A stretch of 36,190 nt of DNA, taken from positions 1 through 36,190 of the forward strand of contig NZ_QAXS01000031.1 of assembly GCF_003053565.1 (NCBI RefSeq). The letters run 5' to 3'. This DNA is from Halanaerobium saccharolyticum. Lineage in GTDB: Bacteria; Bacillota; Halanaerobiia; Halanaerobiales; Halanaerobiaceae. Under the pieces are notes generated by a model that saw only the letters and a program-made list of their open reading frames with translations, did not search any database and had not been told where the DNA came from. Position numbers and translations under genes: made by a program. Of the stretch, positions 7,739 through 35,858 are shown piece after piece. The stretch's first letter is position 1, and each line of letters opens with the position of its first letter.

Positions 7739-8281
7739 TCAACAGCTTGTGCCCGCTTTAATTTTGCGAACTTTAACAGCATCATAATTTAAAAGTACCT
7801 TAATAAAATATGCATAAAGTGGTATATTAATTAACTGACTTATTAATCCCGATGGCATCAACACAGTAAAAGGTACTCCAAATAAAGTGTTAATAAAATA
7901 TGGGACCAGAATTAAAGAAGATATTAATTGTCCTACAGCCACTGAAATAAAAATTATAGGTAGTGTTCGGCAGCGTTTGAGTACATAAAACACCATAAAC
8001 CCTGGAATAAAACCGGTTAAAAAAGAAGTAAAGGTAAAATGAGGCATATAAGCTCCCATTGGATTAATAAAATAACCCAGCAGGTCTCCAAGTGCACCAA
8101 CAATACCTCCAGCAATAGGACCAAAAGCCACACCTGCAAAAATTATCGGTAGACCACCAAAACCAATTCGTACTCCTTCAACTCCTGCAATTGGAATCCT
8201 GATACTGAACACTCTGGTTAAAATGATAGTTAATGCTGTTAAAAAAGAAAGATAGGCAATCTTTTTTGTGCTTAATTTCAT
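7739..8281 (-). CDS. folT: Folate-type ECF transporter S component
   Basis: Membrane substrate-capture subunit of an energy-coupling factor importer, probably for folates. The 180 residues hold about five or six hydrophobic helices. The FolT-like block runs VEGVRIGFGGLPIIFAG, FGPIAGGIVGALGDLLGY and INPMGAYMPHFTFTSFLTG, with conserved small and aromatic residues of the S-component fold. The shared EcfA/EcfT module is not in the window, as expected for group II ECF systems. A tetrahydrofolate riboswitch in its leader (8355-8442) is strong independent evidence for folate as substrate. The start has a very G-rich Shine-Dalgarno (GGGGGGAGGTG). fhs, a THF-consuming enzyme, lies immediately upstream on the same strand. 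Confidence 0.9.
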   Translation of the reverse strand: MKLSTKKIAYLSFLTALTIILTRVFSIRIPIAGVEGVRIGFGGLPIIFAGVAFGPIAGGIVGALGDLLGYFINPMGAYMPHFTFTSFLTGFIPGFMVFYVLKRCRTLPIIFISVAVGQLISSLILVPYFINTLFGVPFTVLMPSGLISQLINIPLYAYFIKVLLNYDAVKVRKIKAGTSC

Positions 8282-8326: not shown

Positions 8327-8352
8327 CACCAAAGAAAGAGGAAACTTTGGTG
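8327..8352 (-). promoter_or_regulatory. Expression-platform hairpin between the THF riboswitch and folT
   Basis: A perfect 8-bp stem CACCAAAG/CTTTGGTG with a 10-base loop TTTCCTCTTT. No T-run follows. The loop's CCTCTTT can pair with AGAGAGG directly before the folT Shine-Dalgarno, so translation control is more likely than termination (inference). Confidence 0.55.
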
Positions 8353-8354
8353 AC

Positions 8355-8442
8355 AGCGGACGCGACAGGGAGACCGCAGCTAAAAGCTTTCGTTTCAGAG
8401 CAACGTCCCATCTCTGAACACTCTACGCCTCCTGTCTACTCT
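8355..8442 (-). ncRNA. Tetrahydrofolate (THF) riboswitch
   Basis: About 88 nucleotides on the minus strand match the class I THF aptamer: AGAGTAGA at the 5' side, GGCGTAGAGTGT, a hairpin whose loop region holds GATGGGACGTTG, the AACGAA linker, a short GCTTTTAGC hairpin, TGCGGT, and the closing GCGTCCGCT. The aptamer arms GACAGG[A]G and CTCCCTGTC can form the closing helices. It lies about 74 bases before the folT ATG and after the fhs stop. THF binding in this family usually lowers expression of folate transport or synthesis genes. Confidence 0.92.
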
Positions 8443-8465
8443 ATCACTATATTTCATTTGTTTTT

Positions 8466-26967: not shown

Positions 26968-28251
26968 CTATTTTTTTATTGATAATTTATTAATTACAAG
27001 GCCGGTTAAAAGTTTTGGATAAAAGTCAGTAGACTTCTGCGGCATTTTTTCTCCCTGGTCTGCAATATCCTTCACTTCTTTAACCGAAGTAGGATTTAGA
27101 ATAAATGCTGCCTGATATTTACCAGTCTCCAGTTTTTCAAGAGCTTTATCTCGATATCTTATATAGTCTAGATTTGACTTAGCAGCCAGTGCTTTTTTAT
27201 CTATACCCAAATATTTTTCCAGAATAATATTATGCAGAATACTTACATCAAGTTCTTTATAAGCCTGAGAATAATCACCTTCTACCTGATCCAAAACAGC
27301 CTCATTTTCAAATTCAAACACATAGTATGCTTCAGCTGCTCCAGCTTTAAAACCAAATACTTTCTTTTCCTGATTCTGATCAAGAAAAATATACATTTCC
27401 TCTTTACTGTCAAATTCTTTAATACTAAAATCCTCAGCTGCTTTTTCTAAAAACGAATTAACTTCAAAATCTTTAATATTATACAATAATCTGTGGGTGG
27501 GCAGTACCTTTAATCCTGGATCATCCATATTGATAAAAGTCATCAGACGGTGATTAAAACTTTCAACTCCATCTGCCTGCCAGCCCTTTTCTTTACACTC
27601 CTGCTGATAATTTAAAGCTGTCTGATAGCGGTGATGTCCATCAGCAATATATAAATTTTTAGATTCCATCTTTTCTTTTATCTCTGCTATCAGCTCTGAA
27701 TCAGTCAGCTGCCAGACTTTATGTAAATTCTGATCTTCATCATGCACCTCAAAAAGAGGCTCGTCTTTCATTAATTTTGTAAATAAATTATTAATTTCAT
27801 TTTTCTGATCTGAATAAAGCATAAAAATATGACCAAAATTTGCTTCTGTAGATCTAATTAACTTTAAACGATCTGCTTTTGGCCCTTCCATTGTATTTTC
27901 GTGAGCCTTAACTCCTTCGCCAGCCTCCAGTTCTCCCAGACCAACAAAGCCCTTGCGGACAAACTTTTCTCCTTCAACCTCATATTCCTGAGTGTAGAGA
28001 TAAAAACCTGCTTTTTGATCACGAACTAAAATCTGCTTTTTAATCCAGTTGTTCAAATAATCAGCTGCACTCTGATAGCGATCTTCTTCCTTTCCTAAAA
28101 TCAAACGCACAACATTATAAGGACTTTGCTCATAATATTCTTCCTGTAACTGCTGATCAATCTTATCATATGGTTGTGTTACTACCTTCTCGAGTTCTCC
28201 AACCTGCTCCTGGTTATATCTATAACCATGAAATGGAAATACCTTCGCCAT
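26968..28251 (-). CDS. DUF1015 domain-containing protein
   Basis: A 427-residue member of DUF1015, a family without a generally accepted function. Recognisable blocks are MAKVFPFHGYRYN, VTQPYDKIDQQLQEEYYEQSPYNVVRLILGKEEDRY, FVRKGFVGLGELE, HENTMEGPKADRLKLIRSTEANFGHIFMLY, the IADGHHRYQTALNYQ motif (about 201-215) and NMDDPGLKVLPTHRLL. The DGHHR motif resembles the GxxR box of ParB/sulfiredoxin-like folds, which include free serine kinase SerK (inference). I choose the ATG at 28251, with GGAG eight bases upstream, not the GTG at 28260. It diverges from serA1 and shares the intergenic region, consistent with a serine-metabolism role. Confidence 0.85.
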   Translation of the reverse strand: MAKVFPFHGYRYNQEQVGELEKVVTQPYDKIDQQLQEEYYEQSPYNVVRLILGKEEDRYQSAADYLNNWIKKQILVRDQKAGFYLYTQEYEVEGEKFVRKGFVGLGELEAGEGVKAHENTMEGPKADRLKLIRSTEANFGHIFMLYSDQKNEINNLFTKLMKDEPLFEVHDEDQNLHKVWQLTDSELIAEIKEKMESKNLYIADGHHRYQTALNYQQECKEKGWQADGVESFNHRLMTFINMDDPGLKVLPTHRLLYNIKDFEVNSFLEKAAEDFSIKEFDSKEEMYIFLDQNQEKKVFGFKAGAAEAYYVFEFENEAVLDQVEGDYSQAYKELDVSILHNIILEKYLGIDKKALAAKSNLDYIRYRDKALEKLETGKYQAAFILNPTSVKEVKDIADQGEKMPQKSTDFYPKLLTGLVINKLSIKK

Positions 28252-28271
28252 ACTTATCACTCCTTTTAATC

Positions 28272-28300
28272 ATTATATATTTTTATCAGCTTTACAGCAA
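28272..28300 (-). promoter_or_regulatory. Promoter of the DUF1015 operon
   Basis: TTGCTG (28295-28300), 17-base spacer, TATAAT (28272-28277) on the minus strand, about 20 bases before the ATG. The -35 resembles the TTGCTT of both serA promoters. Confidence 0.65.
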
Positions 28301-28380
28301 GCTAGATTCAGATATCAAAATTTTTGTAATATAATGAAAATATAATTTATTCTTATTTTACTCTGTTAAAGCATTAAATC

Positions 28381-28430
28381 CTTGCTTTATCCTTTCCAGT
28401 TAGATATAATTAAAAAAAATTAGTAGCAAG
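28381..28430 (+). promoter_or_regulatory. serA1 promoter with inverted CTTGCT/AGCAAG arms
   Basis: TTGCTT (28382-28387), 17-base spacer ending TTAGA, TATAAT (28405-28410). CTTGCT (28381-28386) and AGCAAG (28425-28430) form inverted arms flanking the -10. The serA2 promoter has the same layout. Confidence 0.7.
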
Positions 28431-28452: not shown

Positions 28453-30057
28453 GTGTATAAGGTTTTAGTCAGTGACAATATTGCTCAAAAAGGAATTGAT
28501 ATTTTACAGGAAGCAGGCATGGATGTTGATTTCAAACCAGGACAGAGCCGAGAAGATTTTTTAGAAACTATTGCCGACTATGATGGAATTATTGTTAGAA
28601 GTATGACTCTTTTAGACGCTGAAGCTTTAAATAAGGCAAAAAAATTAAAGGTAATAGGTAGAGCAGGTACAGGTTATGATAATATTGACTTAGATGAGGC
28701 TACTAAACATGGAATTTTCGTTTTTAATACCCCAACTGGAAACACAATTTCTGCGGTTGAACACACTCTGGGAATGATGCTTTCACTTTCCCGTAATATT
28801 CCCCAGGCAAACCAGGCACTACACAATGATATCTGGGACCGCAAAAAATATATGGGGGTTGAAGTAAAGGGTAAAACTTTAGGAATTATTGGTCTGGGAA
28901 GAATCGGAAGCAGGGTTGCCAAGAGAGCCCAGAGTTTTGGAATGAAAGTAATTGCCAATGACCCGTATCTAGCTCCAAAAAAAGCTGAGAAAATTAATGT
29001 CCCTTTACTGCCATTTAAAGAGGTTTTAGAAAAAGCAGATTATGTTACACTACATACACCGCTAACTGATGAAACCTATCATATTTTAAGTCACAAAGAA
29101 TTCGCCATTATGAAAGATGGTGCGCGCGTAATTAACTGCGCCAGAGGTCAAAATGTAGATACCAAAGCTCTGGCTGAGGCATTAGAAAAAAATAAAATTG
29201 CCGGTGCAGCAATCGATGTTCATGAGGAAGAACCAGTTAAAGCCAGTAATAATCCTCTACTTAAATTTAATGATCGTGTTATTATGACCTGTCATTTAGG
29301 TGGAACAACTACTGAGGCCATGGATAATGTGTCGATTACCGCAGCTGAAGAAGTAGTTTCAGTCTTACAGAGCAATCTGCCCGAATCACCACTTAATATC
29401 CCGGCAATGGATCCCCAGGAGTTTAATCAGGCTAAACCGTATATTAATCTGGTAACTAAGCTGGGTAATTTTATGGCTAAGTGGAAAGGGCACGAAAGAA
29501 TTGAGGCTGTAGAAGTCGAATATGGTGGAGAGGTTAATCAATTTAACCACAAGCCAATGACTTTAAGTCTGGTAAAATCTATTTTAGAGCCGATTTTAGA
29601 TGACCGAATTAATCTTGTAAACGCAATGCATATTGCTGAAGAAAGAGGTATTTCTTTAAAGGAAAGCCAGATTCAAAATGAAGGTGAATTAAAAAATATT
29701 ATTAAAATCAACCTTAAAACTGAAACTGGAGAGTACAGTCTGGCCGGAACCTATTTACCAATTGGATTTAGGTTAATCGAAATTAATGGGCTGAGAATTG
29801 ATCTTGACCTCTCAGGTGAATTTATTATAGTTAGTTATCAGGATAAACCGGGAGTAATTGGTAAAATTGGTTCAACACTTGGTGAAGAAAATATTAATAT
29901 TGCTAATATGCAGGTGGGACGTCAGGATATTGGCGGCGAAGCAATTATGATGATGCAGATTGATTCAAAACCTTCTAAAGAAATTATGGAAAGAATCAAA
30001 GTCCATCTTGATGAACTTGATACTCGAGTAAAAGATTTAAGCTATCTGGAAATATAA
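28453..30057 (+). CDS. serA: D-3-phosphoglycerate dehydrogenase, first copy
   Basis: First enzyme of serine biosynthesis: oxidises 3-phosphoglycerate to 3-phosphohydroxypyruvate with NAD. The 534-residue long form has the split substrate domain (VGRAGTGYDNIDLDEAT), a Rossmann domain with an intact GLGRIGSRVAKRA motif (about 148-160), the catalytic Arg in NCARGQNVD, Glu in IDVHEEEP and His in CHLGGTT, then the allosteric substrate-binding domain (about 320-450) and a C-terminal ACT domain (FIIVSYQDKPGVIGKIGSTL, about 455-534) that in the family binds serine. The start is a GTG at 28453 after AGAAGGAG. A tandem paralogue follows after a terminator. The intact motifs make this the likelier active housekeeping copy. 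Confidence 0.96.
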   Translation: MYKVLVSDNIAQKGIDILQEAGMDVDFKPGQSREDFLETIADYDGIIVRSMTLLDAEALNKAKKLKVIGRAGTGYDNIDLDEATKHGIFVFNTPTGNTISAVEHTLGMMLSLSRNIPQANQALHNDIWDRKKYMGVEVKGKTLGIIGLGRIGSRVAKRAQSFGMKVIANDPYLAPKKAEKINVPLLPFKEVLEKADYVTLHTPLTDETYHILSHKEFAIMKDGARVINCARGQNVDTKALAEALEKNKIAGAAIDVHEEEPVKASNNPLLKFNDRVIMTCHLGGTTTEAMDNVSITAAEEVVSVLQSNLPESPLNIPAMDPQEFNQAKPYINLVTKLGNFMAKWKGHERIEAVEVEYGGEVNQFNHKPMTLSLVKSILEPILDDRINLVNAMHIAEERGISLKESQIQNEGELKNIIKINLKTETGEYSLAGTYLPIGFRLIEINGLRIDLDLSGEFIIVSYQDKPGVIGKIGSTLGEENINIANMQVGRQDIGGEAIMMMQIDSKPSKEIMERIKVHLDELDTRVKDLSYLEI

Positions 30058-30078
30058 ATATATTTAGTATAATCGCGG

Positions 30079-30109
30079 GAGCAGTCTTATTAAGACTGCT
30101 CTTTTTTTT
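30079..30109 (+). terminator. Intrinsic terminator after serA1
   Basis: 10-bp stem GAGCAGTCTT/AAGACTGCTC with a 3-base loop (30079-30101), then eight T residues. It separates the two serA transcription units. Confidence 0.93.
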
Positions 30110-30150: not shown

Positions 30151-30197
30151 TTTGCTTGTATCGTATTTATTAGATATAATGAAGTTAAATTAGCAAA
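30151..30197 (+). promoter_or_regulatory. serA2 promoter with inverted TTTGCT/AGCAAA arms
   Basis: TTGCTT (30152-30157), 17-base spacer ending TTAGA, TATAAT (30175-30180). Arms TTTGCT (30151-30156) and AGCAAA (30192-30197) are inverted and flank the -10, as in serA1. Confidence 0.7.
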
Positions 30198-30219: not shown

Positions 30220-31821
30220 GTGTATAAAGTTTTAGTCAATGACAACATTTCTCAAAAAGGCATTGATATTTTACAAGAGGCAGGTATAGAAGTTGATTTC
30301 AAACCCGAACAATCTCGCGAAGAATGTTTAAAAACTATTCATCAATATGATGGAATAATACTTCGCAGTATGACAGATTTAGATAAAAAAGCCTTAGCTA
30401 AAGCTGAAAACTTAAAAGTAATAGGCAGAGCAGGCACCGGTTATGATAATATCGACCTGGAGGAAGCAACTAAAAAAGGAATTTTTGTTTTTAACACTCC
30501 TACCGGCAATACTATTTCTGCTGTAGAACATACTCTGGGAATGATGCTTTCCCTTTCCCGAAATATTCCTCAGTCAAATCAGGCATTACACAACAACCTC
30601 TGGAATAGAAAAAAATATAGAGGAGTTGAATTAAAAGCTAAAACACTGGGAATAATTGGATTAAATAGAATTGGGAGCCGAGTTGCTAAAAGAGCTCAAG
30701 CTTTTGGAATGGATGTAATAGCAAATGATCCCTATCTTGCTCCAGAAAAAGCAGAAAGTTTAAATGTTCCTCTGCTTTCTCTAAAACAACTCTTAAAAAA
30801 ATCTGATTATATAACTCTTCACATCCCATTAACTGAGGAAACTCATCATCTCTTAAGCGAAGCTGAGTTTAAATTAATGAAGAAAAATGCGCGAATAATT
30901 AATTGTGCTCGCGGAAAAAATATTGACACCAAAGCACTGGCCAGAGCTCTAGCAGAAAATGAAATTGCAGGCGCTGCAATCGATGTTCATGAGGAAGAAC
31001 CTGTCCCTAAAGATAATCCACTGCTGAATTTTGAAGACCGGGTTATAATGACTGCACATCTGGGAGGAACCACTATTGAAGCAATAGATAATAATTCTAT
31101 CGCTGCTGCTAGAGAAGTTGTCTCTGTTCTCGAGGGTAATCTTCCAGAATCACCTCTCAATATTCCGGTTATGGATCCTCAGGAATTCAAAAAAGCTCAG
31201 CCATATATTGAACTGGTAGCTAAATTGGGTAAATTTATGGCAGAATGGAAAGGAGACCAGCGAATTAAAGCAGTTGAAGTAGAATACGGGGGTGAAATTA
31301 ATAATTTCAAGCTTAAACCCATAACCTTAAGTTTAATTAAATCTATTCTTGATCCCATACTGGATAACAGAATCAACTTAGTTAATGCAATGCATATAGC
31401 TGAAGAAAGAGAAATTGCCATTAAAGAAAGTAAAATTCAAAATGAAACTGAACTTAAAAATTTAGTCAATCTAAAAGTTAAATCTGATAAAGAAGAATAC
31501 AGTCTTTCGGGAACTTATCTTCCTAATGGTTATCGAATTGTAAGAATAAATGATTTAAGAATTGATCTTGAGCTGGACGGAGAATTTATAATTGTAAGTT
31601 ATCAGGATAAACCGGGTGTGATTGGAAAAATAACCTCTGTTTTAGGAAAAGACAAAATTAATATTGCAAATATGCAGGTTGGCAGGAAATCACCAGGTGG
31701 AGAGGCAGTTGTATTGATTCAAATTGATTCAAAACCCTCAGAAGAAGTTATGCAAGAAATCAAAAATAGTCTAAATGAAATCAATGCCAATCTTAAAGAA
31801 ATAAATTATCTTAAAATATAA
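30220..31821 (+). CDS. D-3-phosphoglycerate dehydrogenase paralogue, altered nucleotide motif
   Basis: A 533-residue paralogue of serA1, collinear and similar along its whole length, so a tandem duplication. The catalytic Arg (NCARGKNID), Glu (IDVHEEEP) and His (AHLGGTT) are kept, as are the allosteric substrate-binding and ACT domains. The nucleotide loop reads GLNRIG where the family has GLGRIG: Asn (AAT) replaces the central glycine of GxGxxG. That should impair or change NAD binding, so it may use its cofactor differently, be weakly active, or act as a regulatory partner of SerA1. The start is a GTG at 30220 after AGGGGAG. It has its own promoter and ribosome site, so it appears to be expressed. 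Confidence 0.9.
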   Translation: MYKVLVNDNISQKGIDILQEAGIEVDFKPEQSREECLKTIHQYDGIILRSMTDLDKKALAKAENLKVIGRAGTGYDNIDLEEATKKGIFVFNTPTGNTISAVEHTLGMMLSLSRNIPQSNQALHNNLWNRKKYRGVELKAKTLGIIGLNRIGSRVAKRAQAFGMDVIANDPYLAPEKAESLNVPLLSLKQLLKKSDYITLHIPLTEETHHLLSEAEFKLMKKNARIINCARGKNIDTKALARALAENEIAGAAIDVHEEEPVPKDNPLLNFEDRVIMTAHLGGTTIEAIDNNSIAAAREVVSVLEGNLPESPLNIPVMDPQEFKKAQPYIELVAKLGKFMAEWKGDQRIKAVEVEYGGEINNFKLKPITLSLIKSILDPILDNRINLVNAMHIAEEREIAIKESKIQNETELKNLVNLKVKSDKEEYSLSGTYLPNGYRIVRINDLRIDLELDGEFIIVSYQDKPGVIGKITSVLGKDKINIANMQVGRKSPGGEAVVLIQIDSKPSEEVMQEIKNSLNEINANLKEINYLKI

Positions 31822-33106: not shown

Positions 33107-34177
33107 TTATAACTCTAAAATACTTTCAATAGTGGCCAGTAAACCCTTGATGTCAGCTAAGCTCAGATCACCCATATGTCCAATTCTAAAAGCTTTATTT
33201 TTCAAATCACCATAGCCATTAGCAATTCGAATATTATATTTTTCGACCAGAGTCTTAATTAAATTATTAACATCAATACCTCGATTGTTTTCAATACAGG
33301 TAACTGTATTCGACCAGTACCCTTCCTCAGCATATATATCAAAATATTCTAAAGCCCAGTTTTGAACATATTCAGCCATTTCCTGATGTCTGGCAAATCT
33401 ATTTTCTATGCCCTCAAGATTAACGATATCATCCAGCTGCTTTTGCAGGGCAAAAATTTGTGGAATTGCCGGAGTTGTTCTTGTCTGTGAACGCTGATGA
33501 TACTTATATAAAAGTGGCAGATTAAAATAATAGCTTTTACTTTCCACCTCTTCTGCTCTCTTTAACAAATCATCACTAACTGAAGCAACAGTTAGACCTG
33601 CAGGTAAAGCAAATGCCTTCTGAACTCCTGCCAGACACATATCAATTCCCCAGTCATCTACTCTAATTTCAGTACCAGCCATTCCTGAAACAGCATCAAC
33701 TAAAAATAAAACATCATCAAATTTCTTTACAACTTCTCCAATTTCCTTAACTGGATTCATTAAACCTGTAGAAGTCTCATTTAAAACAACAGTAATCGCA
33801 TCATATTTACCTGTCTTAAGCTTTTCTTCTACTAATTCTGGTTTTACAGCCTGATCCCAGGGAATCTCTACTTTATCACAGGCAACACCATTTTTTTTAG
33901 TGATTTGATACCAGCGATCTGAAAAAGCGCCATTGACAAAATTTAAACAGCGTTTTTTGACCCCATTGGTCACTGCAGCCTCCATAGCTCCAGTTGAAGA
34001 TGAGGAAAATAAAAAAACAGGATTTTCTGTAAATAGTAATTTTTTTAAATTTCCCTGAATATCATCATAAATCTCAGAAAATTTCTCAGTTCGGTGGTGA
34101 ATTTGTGCTGTTGATAATTCCTTAAGTAATTCACTTCTCACTTCTGTTGGTCCTGGAGTAAATAATTTTTCGTGCAT
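33107..34177 (-). CDS. Class V aminotransferase, probable phosphoserine transaminase
   Basis: PLP enzyme of the alanine--glyoxylate/serine--pyruvate transaminase branch of class V (about 356 residues). Visible features are FTPGPTEVRSELL, HHRTEKFSEIYDDI, FSSSSTGAMEAAVTN (cofactor phosphate loop), VLNETSTGLMNPV, FLVDAVSGMAG with the PLP-binding Asp, the Schiff-base lysine in GVQKAFALPAG, and RTTPAIPQIFAL. It is not the classic SerC. Proximity to two serA genes suggests that it converts 3-phosphohydroxypyruvate to phosphoserine. I choose the ATG at 34177, with GAGGTG seven bases upstream; the in-frame ATG at 34192 would contain that site. Confidence 0.85.
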   Translation of the reverse strand: MHEKLFTPGPTEVRSELLKELSTAQIHHRTEKFSEIYDDIQGNLKKLLFTENPVFLFSSSSTGAMEAAVTNGVKKRCLNFVNGAFSDRWYQITKKNGVACDKVEIPWDQAVKPELVEEKLKTGKYDAITVVLNETSTGLMNPVKEIGEVVKKFDDVLFLVDAVSGMAGTEIRVDDWGIDMCLAGVQKAFALPAGLTVASVSDDLLKRAEEVESKSYYFNLPLLYKYHQRSQTRTTPAIPQIFALQKQLDDIVNLEGIENRFARHQEMAEYVQNWALEYFDIYAEEGYWSNTVTCIENNRGIDVNNLIKTLVEKYNIRIANGYGDLKNKAFRIGHMGDLSLADIKGLLATIESILEL

Positions 34178-34218
34178 TTTTGAACACCTCATAAATTATA
34201 TTTTCAGCTTCAGCTGAA

Positions 34219-34265
34219 TTGCTCGGTTCTCTATACTTAGATATAATTATTTATTATTATAGCAG
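34219..34265. promoter_or_regulatory. serA-like TTGCT...AGCAG box upstream of the aminotransferase gene
   Basis: TTGCT (34219-34223) and AGCAG (34261-34265) enclose a TTAGATATAAT (34237-34247), repeating the serA1/serA2 layout. Read on the plus strand it has TTGCTC, 17 bases, TATAAT, but no gene lies that way. On the minus strand an extended -10 TGCTATAAT (-10 hexamer 34256-34261) could serve the aminotransferase gene. Confidence 0.5.
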
Positions 34266-34358: not shown

Positions 34359-34433
34359 TGGAGCGGGAAACGAGATTTGAACTCGCGACCCTCACGTTGG
34401 CAACGTGATGCTCTACCACTGAGCTATTCCCGC
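34359..34433 (-). tRNA. tRNA-Gly (GCC)
   Basis: Cloverleaf with GCGGGAA acceptor arm, AGCTCAGTGGTAGAGC D-arm, anticodon loop TTGCCAA and GTTCAAAT T-loop; CCA is encoded. Last tRNA of the cluster. Confidence 0.96.
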
Positions 34434-34441
34434 ATATTTAA

Positions 34442-34526
34442 TGGTGGAGGGGAAAGGATTTGAACCTTTGTAGGCATCGCCGGCAGATTTACAGTCTGCT
34501 CCCTTTAACCACTCGGGCACCCCTCC
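34442..34526 (-). tRNA. tRNA-Tyr (GTA)
   Basis: 85-nt class II tRNA: GGAGGGG acceptor, long variable arm, anticodon loop CTGTAAA, encoded CCA. Confidence 0.96.
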
Positions 34527-34535
34527 AGATTAGAT

Positions 34536-34562
34536 GTAGGAAATAAGAAGTAGGAAATAAGA
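34536..34562. repeat. 7-base tandem repeat in a tRNA spacer
   Basis: GTAGGAAATAAGA occurs at 34536-34548 and again at 34550-34562, readable as four heptamers alternating GTAGGAA and ATAAGAA/T. A near-copy (GTAGGAAGTAAGA, one change) is at 34894-34906 in another tRNA spacer. The 3' part of this spacer (34573-34590) holds a degenerate complementary stretch. Confidence 0.6.
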
Positions 34563-34629
34563 TTATTAAAAATCCTATTCTATTCCTTTTTAATATTTTA
34601 TTGTCCTCCACCCAGAAATAAATTAACTT

Positions 34630-34705
34630 TGGTGGAGATAAGGGGATTCGAACCCCTGGCCTCTACACTGCCAGTGTAGCGCTCTCCCAGCTGAGCTATA
34701 TCCCC
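34630..34705 (-). tRNA. tRNA-Ala (GGC)
   Basis: GGGGATA acceptor, AGCTCAGCTGGGAGAGC D-arm, anticodon loop CTGGCAG, encoded CCA. Confidence 0.95.
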
Positions 34706-34722
34706 ATGGCTATAAAAGTCAA

Positions 34723-34799
34723 TGGAGCCGATGACCGGAGTTGAACCGGTGACCTCTTCCTTACCATGGAAGCGCTGCTACCAACTGAGCTACATCGGC
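34723..34799 (-). tRNA. tRNA-Thr (GGT)
   Basis: GCCGATG acceptor, anticodon stem CTTCC/GGAAG with loop ATGGTAA, encoded CCA. Confidence 0.95.
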
Positions 34800-34807
34800 A
34801 TAAAAAA

Positions 34808-34884
34808 TGGCGGAGGAGACGGGATTTGAACCCGCGATCTCCGGCTTGACAGGCCGGCGCGTTAAACCGCTACGCTACACCTCC
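34808..34884 (-). tRNA. tRNA-Asp (GTC)
   Basis: GGAGGTG acceptor, anticodon stem CCGGC/GCCGG with loop CTGTCAA, G discriminator and encoded CCA. Confidence 0.95.
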
Positions 34885-34886
34885 GT

Positions 34887-34931
34887 ATTGGATGTAGGAA
34901 GTAAGATGTCGAGAAAGGAATCTCTTCCAAT
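34887..34931. repeat. Spacer hairpin containing a third copy of the heptamer-type repeat
   Basis: ATTGGA at 34887 and TCCAAT ending at 34931 are inverted, with GGAAG/CTTCC inside and a nested GAGA/TCTC pair. The 5' arm carries GTAGGAAGTAAGA, related to the repeat at 34536-34562. Confidence 0.5.
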
Positions 34932-34956
34932 CTAACAATATACTTCATTATTTAAA

Positions 34957-35032
34957 TGGTGGGCGAAACAGGGCTCGAACCTGTGACCCCCTGCTTGTAA
35001 GGCAGGTGCTCTCCCAACTGAGCTATTCGCCC
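34957..35032 (-). tRNA. tRNA-Val (TAC)
   Basis: GGGCGAA acceptor, anticodon stem CCTGC/GCAGG with loop CTTACAA, encoded CCA. Confidence 0.96.
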
Positions 35033-35039
35033 GCAAAAA

Positions 35040-35115
35040 TGGTACCCTCAAGGGGATTCGAACCCCTGCCGCCAGGATGAAAACCTGGTGTCCTAGACCC
35101 CTAGACGATGAGGGC
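35040..35115 (-). tRNA. tRNA-Glu (TTC)
   Basis: GCCCTCA acceptor (first pair G-U), CGTCTAGG D-arm, anticodon loop TTTTCAT, encoded CCA. Confidence 0.95.
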
Positions 35116-35125
35116 ATAAATTAAA

Positions 35126-35218
35126 TGGCGGAGAGAGAGGGATTCGAACCCTCGCCAGGGTAAATACCCTGCTACAGGTTTAGCAAACCCGCCCCTTCAG
35201 CCACTTGGGTACCTCTCC
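35126..35218 (-). tRNA. tRNA-Ser (GCT)
   Basis: 93-nt class II tRNA with GGAGAGG acceptor, long variable arm, anticodon loop TTGCTAA, G discriminator and encoded CCA. Confidence 0.95.
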
Positions 35219-35229
35219 ATGAATACAAA

Positions 35230-35306
35230 TGGTGGGTCTAAGAGGACTTGAACCTCTGACACTGTGGGTATGAACCACATGCTCTAGCCAACTGAGCTAT
35301 AGACCC
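35230..35306 (-). tRNA. tRNA-Met (CAT), elongator type
   Basis: GGGTCTA acceptor, anticodon stem TGTGG/CCACA with loop TTCATAC. The GGTTCATACC centre fits elongator Met; tRNA-Ile2 (lysidine) usually has CTCATAA, so it is less likely but not excluded. Confidence 0.88.
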
Positions 35307-35314
35307 ATGATATA

Positions 35315-35391
<77 letters not shown>

Positions 35392-35448
35392 ATCTTACCA
35401 TGTAATTTTGCCTGATGTATATAAAATATTAATTTTTAAAAATAAAAA

Positions 35449-35525
35449 TGGTTGCGGGGACCGGATTCGAACCGATGACCTCCAGGTTATGAGCCTGACG
35501 AGCTACCAGACTGCTCTACCCCGCG
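35449..35525 (-). tRNA. Initiator tRNA-fMet (CAT)
   Basis: Acceptor CGCGGGG against CCCCGCA gives the initiator-specific C1-A72 mismatch; anticodon loop CTCATAA; encoded CCA. The anticodon stem is TCAGG/CCTGG, so position 29-41 is A-U where most bacterial initiators have the first of three G-C pairs. Confidence 0.95.
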
Positions 35526-35529
35526 CCAA

Positions 35530-35605
35530 TGGTGAGCCATGGAGGATTCGAACCTCCGACAACCTGATTAAAAGTCAGGTGCTCTGCCAACTGAGCTAAT
35601 GGCCC
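35530..35605 (-). tRNA. tRNA-Lys (TTT)
   Basis: GGGCCAT acceptor, anticodon stem CCTGA/TCAGG with loop CTTTTAA, encoded CCA. Only four bases separate it from tRNA-fMet. Confidence 0.95.
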
Positions 35606-35633
35606 AAAATAATGATGAGCATTTATAATTAAA

Positions 35634-35708
35634 TGGCTGGGGCGGTAGGATTCGAACCTACGCGTCCTGAGACCAAAACCCAGTGCCTTACCGCTTGGCT
35701 ACACCCCA
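35634..35708 (-). tRNA. tRNA-Gln (TTG)
   Basis: TGGGGTG acceptor, AGCCAAGCGGTAAGGC D-arm, anticodon loop TTTTGGT, G discriminator and encoded CCA. First tRNA after 5S rRNA. Confidence 0.95.
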
Positions 35709-35741
35709 GTATTATAAAAATCATCAAAGCTTGGAAAAAAG

Positions 35742-35858
35742 GACCGGCAGCGACCTACTCTCCCACATCGTTACCAATGCAGTACCATAGGCGCTGGAGG
35801 ACTTAACTTTTGTGTTCGAGATGGGAACAAGTGTTGCCCCTCCGCTATTACCACCGGA
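35742..35858 (-). rRNA. rrf: 5S ribosomal RNA
   Basis: About 117 nt on the minus strand with the conserved 5S blocks TTCCCATCTCGAACAC, AGTTAAG, GCGCC, ATGGTACTG and TGGGAGAGTAGGTCG, and complementary ends (CCGGTGG with CTGCCGG). Exact ends are estimates. Confidence 0.95.

Follow-up and report, generated by a model that had tools for sequence, protein, structure and literature searches.

Phosphorylation of free serine has so far been described in a few hyperthermophilic archaea and in a staphylococcal siderophore pathway. SerK of Thermococcus kodakarensis uses ADP, and not ATP or PPi, as phosphate donor and rejects threonine and homoserine as substrates (PMC5120207). In Desulfurococcales serK is located beside serA and aminotransferase genes, and its authors proposed a route of serine assimilation from serine via phosphoserine and phosphohydroxypyruvate to 3-phosphoglycerate (PMC5120207). 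The second described free serine kinase, SbnI, acts in staphyloferrin B synthesis. SerK is a member of the ParB/sulfiredoxin-like fold, and the ParB-CTPase fold was recently surveyed in PNAS (2025); in this survey 'DU1015' appears among 50 ParB-fold candidates picked for NTP-binding tests, so that the relation of DUF1015 to ParB had already been noticed (PMC12704722). The main text of the survey does not name DUF1015 among the NTP binders, and those parts of it that deal with the family report neither a result or function for it nor a connection to serine, an operon or a catalytic interpretation (PMC12704722). Elsewhere in the full-text literature searched DUF1015 was mentioned by name only incidentally and no link to serine was found; subscription papers, preprints and supplements were outside the scope of this search, so a prior description is possible. 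DUF1015 carries no assigned function in the libraries used here; half of the genomes sampled from the phylum encode it, and it extends to about 20 phyla.

The DUF1015 locus of Halanaerobium saccharolyticum

The window analyzed here is a stretch of 36,190 nucleotides from the H. saccharolyticum genome (3.2 Mb in 94 contigs, 98.7% complete), which harbors a single DUF1015 gene. The following genes and elements surround it:

26968..28251, minus strand: DUF1015 gene, 427 aa from a conserved ATG at 28251, proposed free-serine kinase
28453..30057, plus strand: serA1, phosphoglycerate dehydrogenase with ACT domain, 534 aa (TIGR01327, 612.7 bits, cut-off 454)
30077..30103, plus strand: hairpin resembling an intrinsic terminator, after serA1
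30220..31821, plus strand: serA2, second tandem phosphoglycerate dehydrogenase, 533 aa (TIGR01327, 603.2 bits)
33107..34192, minus strand: class-V aminotransferase, probable phosphoserine transaminase (PF00266)

The DUF1015 protein was matched by Pfam PF06245 with an E-value of 4e-90 (302.5 bits, gathering score 25.8), and with E-values up to 10 no HTH, ParB or HAD model of Pfam was found on it, DUF1015 being the only model that passes. A longer open reading frame of 430 codons starts with GTG at 28260 (26968-28260, minus strand), and residues are numbered according to this frame throughout. The true start is likelier to be the ATG at 28251, since this codon and the GGAG ribosome-binding site ahead of it are both kept in an alignment of ten genus genomes.

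The second serA reported close by in the initial annotation was recovered above the TIGR01327 cut-off; it is a tandem duplicate of serA1, and of ten genus members just two have it, the window strain and its nearest relative (L049). The aminotransferase, which lies beyond serA2 on the minus strand together with an MFS transporter gene, had been taken for a probable phosphoserine transaminase. It is the sole match of the genome to the SerC model (TIGR01364, 50.6 bits, under cut-off) and meets no curated cut-off, leaving its probable role as phosphoserine transaminase to be assigned by context. Directly beyond it 13 tRNA genes lie densely clustered with a 5S rRNA gene (34362-35858, minus strand). 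At another site of the window a THF riboswitch, a control element related to one-carbon metabolism, was detected upstream of the open reading frame 7739-8281 (8352-8445, minus strand; Rfam RF01831, 72.5 bits).

Divergent promoters of DUF1015 and serA1

DUF1015 and serA1 are divergently oriented and separated by about 200 bases, and matched TTGCT-type promoters had been noticed between them. Exact matches to this promoter-like form were found at four positions:

28272..28300, minus strand: TTGCTG-N17-TATAAT ahead of DUF1015
28382..28410, plus strand: TTGCTT-N17-TATAAT ahead of serA1
30152..30180, plus strand: TTGCTT-N17-TATAAT ahead of serA2
34219-34247, plus strand: fourth exact TTGCT-N18-TATAAT, just upstream of the aminotransferase start and pointing away from it

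The two elements of the divergent region are both conserved in the ten genus members. The window contains four exact copies of TTGCT-N18-TATAAT versus 42 in the 3.2 Mb genome, about 10 of which are copies of one repeat, while the same element read backwards does not occur anywhere in the genome. As a generic sigma-70 scan of the window gave no surplus of promoter-like sites, the TTGCT-type elements constitute a specific promoter-like form in common and not the product of a generally promoter-rich region. The element at 34219-34247 faces the tRNA cluster, a region with no evident gene on the plus strand.

The modeled fold of DUF1015 is closest to SerK and SbnI

A fold comparison with SerK and ParB had been put forward as a check in the initial annotation. 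An AF2 model of the window protein was built from an alignment of 53 DUF1015 proteins (mean pLDDT 94.5, pTM 0.91) and searched against the PDB with Foldseek. Nine matches with E < 1e-3 were obtained and all of them were SerK or SbnI, namely P. furiosus 1VK1, five free serine kinase entries and three SbnI entries. Upon re-alignment SerK reached Z-scores of 13.2-14.8 over 225-232 of ~240 residues and SbnI 12.0-12.5, followed by sulfiredoxin with 5.5 and lower values for all others. As a control against a peculiarity of one subfamily, a second model was generated for the protein of locus L070, which is encoded in a SerC-SerA-DUF1015 operon and shares ~28-29% identity with the window protein; this model reached a pLDDT of 96.0. 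The identical set of nine matches was returned, with Z-scores of 12-13 for SerK, 12 for SbnI, 4.9 for sulfiredoxin and 2.9 for ParB. Across both models the SerK and SbnI alignments comprised 212-232 residues with Z-scores of 12-15. Because models of two distant subfamilies gave the same nine matches, the predicted fold of DUF1015 is nearest to the two families for which phosphorylation of free serine is known and is not merely ParB-like, which makes the relation more specific than the one to ParB in general (Z 12-15 versus 2.9).

Sequence motifs shared with SerK

A search of the PDB with the single DUF1015 sequence gave no match. When DUF1015 profiles were searched against 177,635 PDB sequences, only SerK chains were found with E-values up to 10, the best being 0.0058 (alignment A1) and 0.00073 (broader alignment A3). 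The matches formed two collinear stretches, the first containing DGHHR and the second a C-terminal KTT segment. For the C-terminal stretch HHalign gave a probability of 94 between the DUF1015 profile and SerK, whereas the reversed SerK control gave 0.1. Overall sequence identity to SerK is 12-19%. Three motifs of the window protein recur, as judged from the sequences, in the order HE (Glu30), DGHHR and K-T-T of SerK:

27892..27903, minus strand: codons of H120-E121-N-T123, corresponding by motif order to SerK H29-E30
27628..27642, minus strand: codons of D207-G-H-H-R211, the ParB/SerK phosphate-binding box (GxxR), aligned by HMMER to SerK DGHHR
27028..27036, minus strand: codons of K409-S-T411, corresponding to SerK K221-T-T223 by HMMER and HHalign, with a negative reversed-sequence control

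Conservation was counted in 141 DUF1015 relatives from about 20 phyla. The DGHHR box is present in 141/141 proteins, as are H120, R131 and K409, while E121, T123 and T411 are each kept in 140/141. The motif ADGHHRYQTA, which had been likened to the GxxR/GCHR box of the fold that contains SerK, occupies residues 206-215, and the HMMER alignment of its DGHHR to that of SerK bears this likeness out. As expected from SerK, HE-x-T precedes DGHHR and a helix follows, a likeness that is one of motif order. The SerK chains of the PDB include E30A and E30Q mutants within the KPHE motif, so Glu30 is the position that was probed in the structural work, and according to the SerK structure paper Glu30 reportedly acts as the catalytic base.

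The distance from HE to DGHHR is 87 residues in DUF1015 versus 40 in SerK, since DUF1015 contains insertions and an N-terminal part with an invariant PYD. With a length of ~430 aa DUF1015 is ~190 residues longer than SerK; the N-terminal part beyond the SerK match comprises residues 4-85 of the window protein (28006-28251) and includes this PYD, of which P30 and D32 are present in 141/141 relatives and Y31 in 140/141.

Distribution and linkage to serine genes

DUF1015 was found in 100/199 sampled genomes of the phylum, in 18/59 of the class and in many other phyla, its relatives spanning about 20 phyla that are mostly bacterial. Linkage was surveyed in 141 DUF1015 loci, which were selected on a mix of score and diversity, and the following figures are therefore counts and not frequencies. 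A serA-like gene was located within three genes of DUF1015 in 26 loci and an aminotransferase gene in 28. In one of the former (L139) the neighbors turned out to be other hydroxyacid dehydrogenases, and after its removal 25/141 loci were serA-linked. Three further adjacent DUF1015/serA pairs were identified by comparing coordinates (G082 C99, G114 C114 and G180 C24), and at two Planctomycetota loci an aminotransferase gene is the neighbor without serA. The recurrence of DUF1015 with serA and aminotransferase genes in distant genomes, for which a survey had also been suggested, is thus confirmed.

On the tree the linked genes fall on about eight separate branches, comprising an operon clade (L063, L067-L076 and L079), L064, L087, L098, L105, L108 (Bipolaricaulota), L110 (Chloroflexota) and the window genus. 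Linkage requires a minimum of 13 label changes, and the linked branches may have gained the arrangement independently or retain what is left of an old operon. Outside of these lineages most DUF1015 genes have no serA nearby. In the window genus serA is divergently oriented at position -1 in 10/10 loci examined, while in the nearest relatives from other families of the same order DUF1015 is unlinked. The usual arrangement outside the window genus is aminotransferase, SerA and DUF1015 in this order on a single strand with gaps of -86 to +104 bases. SerA lengths in these operons are about 300, 390 or 530 residues, and the aminotransferase partner is a class-V enzyme as in the window or a genuine SerC over cut-off (L068, L070). 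Genome G114 carries two DUF1015 genes (L066 and G114:C114:489-1424), only one of which adjoins serA, and so offers a natural pair of linked and unlinked copies.

No SerB over cut-off in the sampled genomes of the phylum

The lack of a recognizable SerB-type phosphatase among these genes had been part of the initial argument for a role of DUF1015 in serine metabolism. No SerB over cut-off was found in the whole H. saccharolyticum genome. Its best matches are weak and are other HAD proteins which, judged from sequence, resemble a Cof-type, a beta-phosphoglucomutase-like and a small soluble HAD protein, and the genome encodes one histidine-phosphatase protein. The observation therefore holds genome-wide. 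As the SerB model reached its cut-off in 0/199 genomes of the phylum, whether these carry DUF1015 or not, its absence is nevertheless weak and uninformative as evidence and was discarded as support. A strong SerA match is present in 177/199 sampled genomes. Non-orthologous phosphoserine phosphatases, SerB2-SerB4, have been catalogued, and 450 gut genomes of diverse Firmicutes were reported to encode SerA and SerC and none of the four known phosphoserine phosphatases (PMC9026213). If DUF1015 ran from phosphoserine to serine it could fill a part of this gap, and only a part, because half of the sampled genomes are devoid of DUF1015. A supply of phosphoserine for cysteine synthesis owing to a missing CysE was considered as well and is unsupported, a CysE-like protein over cut-off being present here and in 157/199 genomes.

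Proposed function of DUF1015

It had been suggested that DUF1015 may interconvert serine and phosphoserine or control this flux. The SerK-type fold, the invariant motifs and the repeated serine-gene neighbors make such an interconversion probable, although the SerB argument has fallen away; of the three refuting conditions named in the initial annotation, those on fold and gene linkage thus turned out for the proposal. From this combination we infer catalysis, substrate, donor and direction as follows: DUF1015 is likely an enzyme of the SerK/SbnI superfamily which transfers phosphate between a small donor and the hydroxyl group of free L-serine, serine + donor-P <-> O-phosphoserine + donor, most likely toward phosphoserine. 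The shared fold at 12-19% identity does not by itself prove a shared reaction.

In analogy with SerK, the phosphates of the donor would be held by the DGHHR box, which lies where a helix begins, Glu121 of HE-x-T would serve as catalytic base and take the proton from the hydroxyl of serine, and the K-S/T-T segment at the C-terminus may contribute to closure of the two-domain cleft. The analogy also suggests ADP as donor, with ATP or PPi as possible alternatives. In the cell the reaction would most likely proceed from serine to phosphoserine, and the neighboring aminotransferase together with SerA running backwards could deliver serine carbon into glycolysis as 3-phosphoglycerate, as was proposed for archaeal SerK. 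The same three-gene set is found at serK loci of Desulfurococcales, which suggests the same serine-assimilation pathway.

Alternatively, DUF1015 could act in the opposite direction as the last step of serine synthesis, transferring the phosphate of phosphoserine to AMP or Pi and thereby replacing SerB. Its position directly after SerC and SerA in several operons would fit, as would a SerB score under cut-off in 199/199 sampled genomes and the 450 gut Firmicutes genomes without a known phosphoserine phosphatase (PMC9026213). However, about half of the sampled genomes have no DUF1015, yet 177/199 possess a strong SerA, so that many serine producers must use another phosphatase. Furthermore, the formation of ADP from phosphoserine is energetically unfavorable, and synthesis in this direction would need PPi or steep ratios. 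Three genomes (G164, G061 and G189) also encode a long SerA over cut-off elsewhere, and in G164 the SerA of the operon is only ~300 residues long, which fits an added, separately regulated gene set. We regard this direction as unlikely. A broader version, in which DUF1015 is the final serine-synthesis enzyme of SerB-less bacteria and works as a reversible phosphotransferase, regaining the phosphate as ADP or PPi rather than losing it by hydrolysis and allowing the SerC-SerA-DUF1015 operon to run as synthesis or as assimilation, is doubtful, if slightly easier to credit. On the evidence, a serine kinase is favored no less than the missing phosphatase.

A non-catalytic role appears very improbable. 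DUF1015 would here use its ParB-like fold as a nucleotide switch that senses serine or phosphoserine and controls SerA or the expression of serA. Divergent promoters with serA, as in the window genus, are typical of regulator-target pairs, and ParB folds act as switches, several of which bind NTPs without known enzymology (PMC12704722). Yet no HTH or other DNA-binding family was found by Pfam on the DUF1015 protein, its invariant positions cluster in the SerK-type motifs, with the putative base Glu121 among them, its fold is far nearer to SerK and SbnI than to ParB, and the genes beside it in the operons encode enzymes of a single pathway. Least probable of all is a kinase of the same fold for homoserine, glycerate or hydroxypyruvate with serine genes as incidental or indirect neighbors: most DUF1015 genes do not adjoin serine genes, so the ancestral role could differ, but free serine is the substrate of the close structural relatives whose activity is known, SerK accepts neither threonine nor homoserine (PMC5120207), and DUF1015 is linked to SerA and to two different families of phosphoserine-transaminase type.

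Comparison with known systems

SerB and SerB2-SerB4 act on the same metabolite, phosphoserine; they are HAD or histidine-phosphatase hydrolases and DUF1015 matches neither. Decades ago biochemical work on propionibacteria reportedly described a PPi-dependent serine phosphotransferase (EC 2.7.1.80). With the ParB/sulfiredoxin (ParB-CTPase) fold DUF1015 has the GxxR-type phosphate-binding box in common, but the match is confined to a partial domain with 73-101 aligned residues (Z about 5 for Srx and 2.9 for ParB) and is far below that of SerK and SbnI; moreover, ParB segregation proteins carry an HTH after the ParB fold, and none was found by Pfam in DUF1015. SbnI (PDB 5UJE, 5UJD, 6NR6) is the second-best fold match of both models with Z about 12. 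It shares about 10-14% identity and is encoded in a siderophore cluster, whereas DUF1015 is found in serC/serA operons.

The closest described relative is the ADP-dependent SerK (PDB 5X0B-5X0K; P. furiosus 1VK1), whose two-domain fold the DUF1015 models match along almost the entire length of SerK. HE, DGHHR and K-T-T occur in the same order in both, and in some hosts both genes lie beside serA and an aminotransferase gene. SerK comprises 242 aa, whereas DUF1015 has about 430 with the N-terminal PYD part and longer insertions. SerK was described as confined to Thermococcales and Desulfurococcales, in contrast to DUF1015 with its occurrence in ~20 mostly bacterial phyla. Taken together, the free-serine kinase superfamily probably has in DUF1015 a large and mostly bacterial branch. 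A serine kinase activity of DUF1015, if true, would bear on the gut genomes with SerA and SerC described above and would make the phosphorylation of free serine a widespread reaction of bacterial metabolism.
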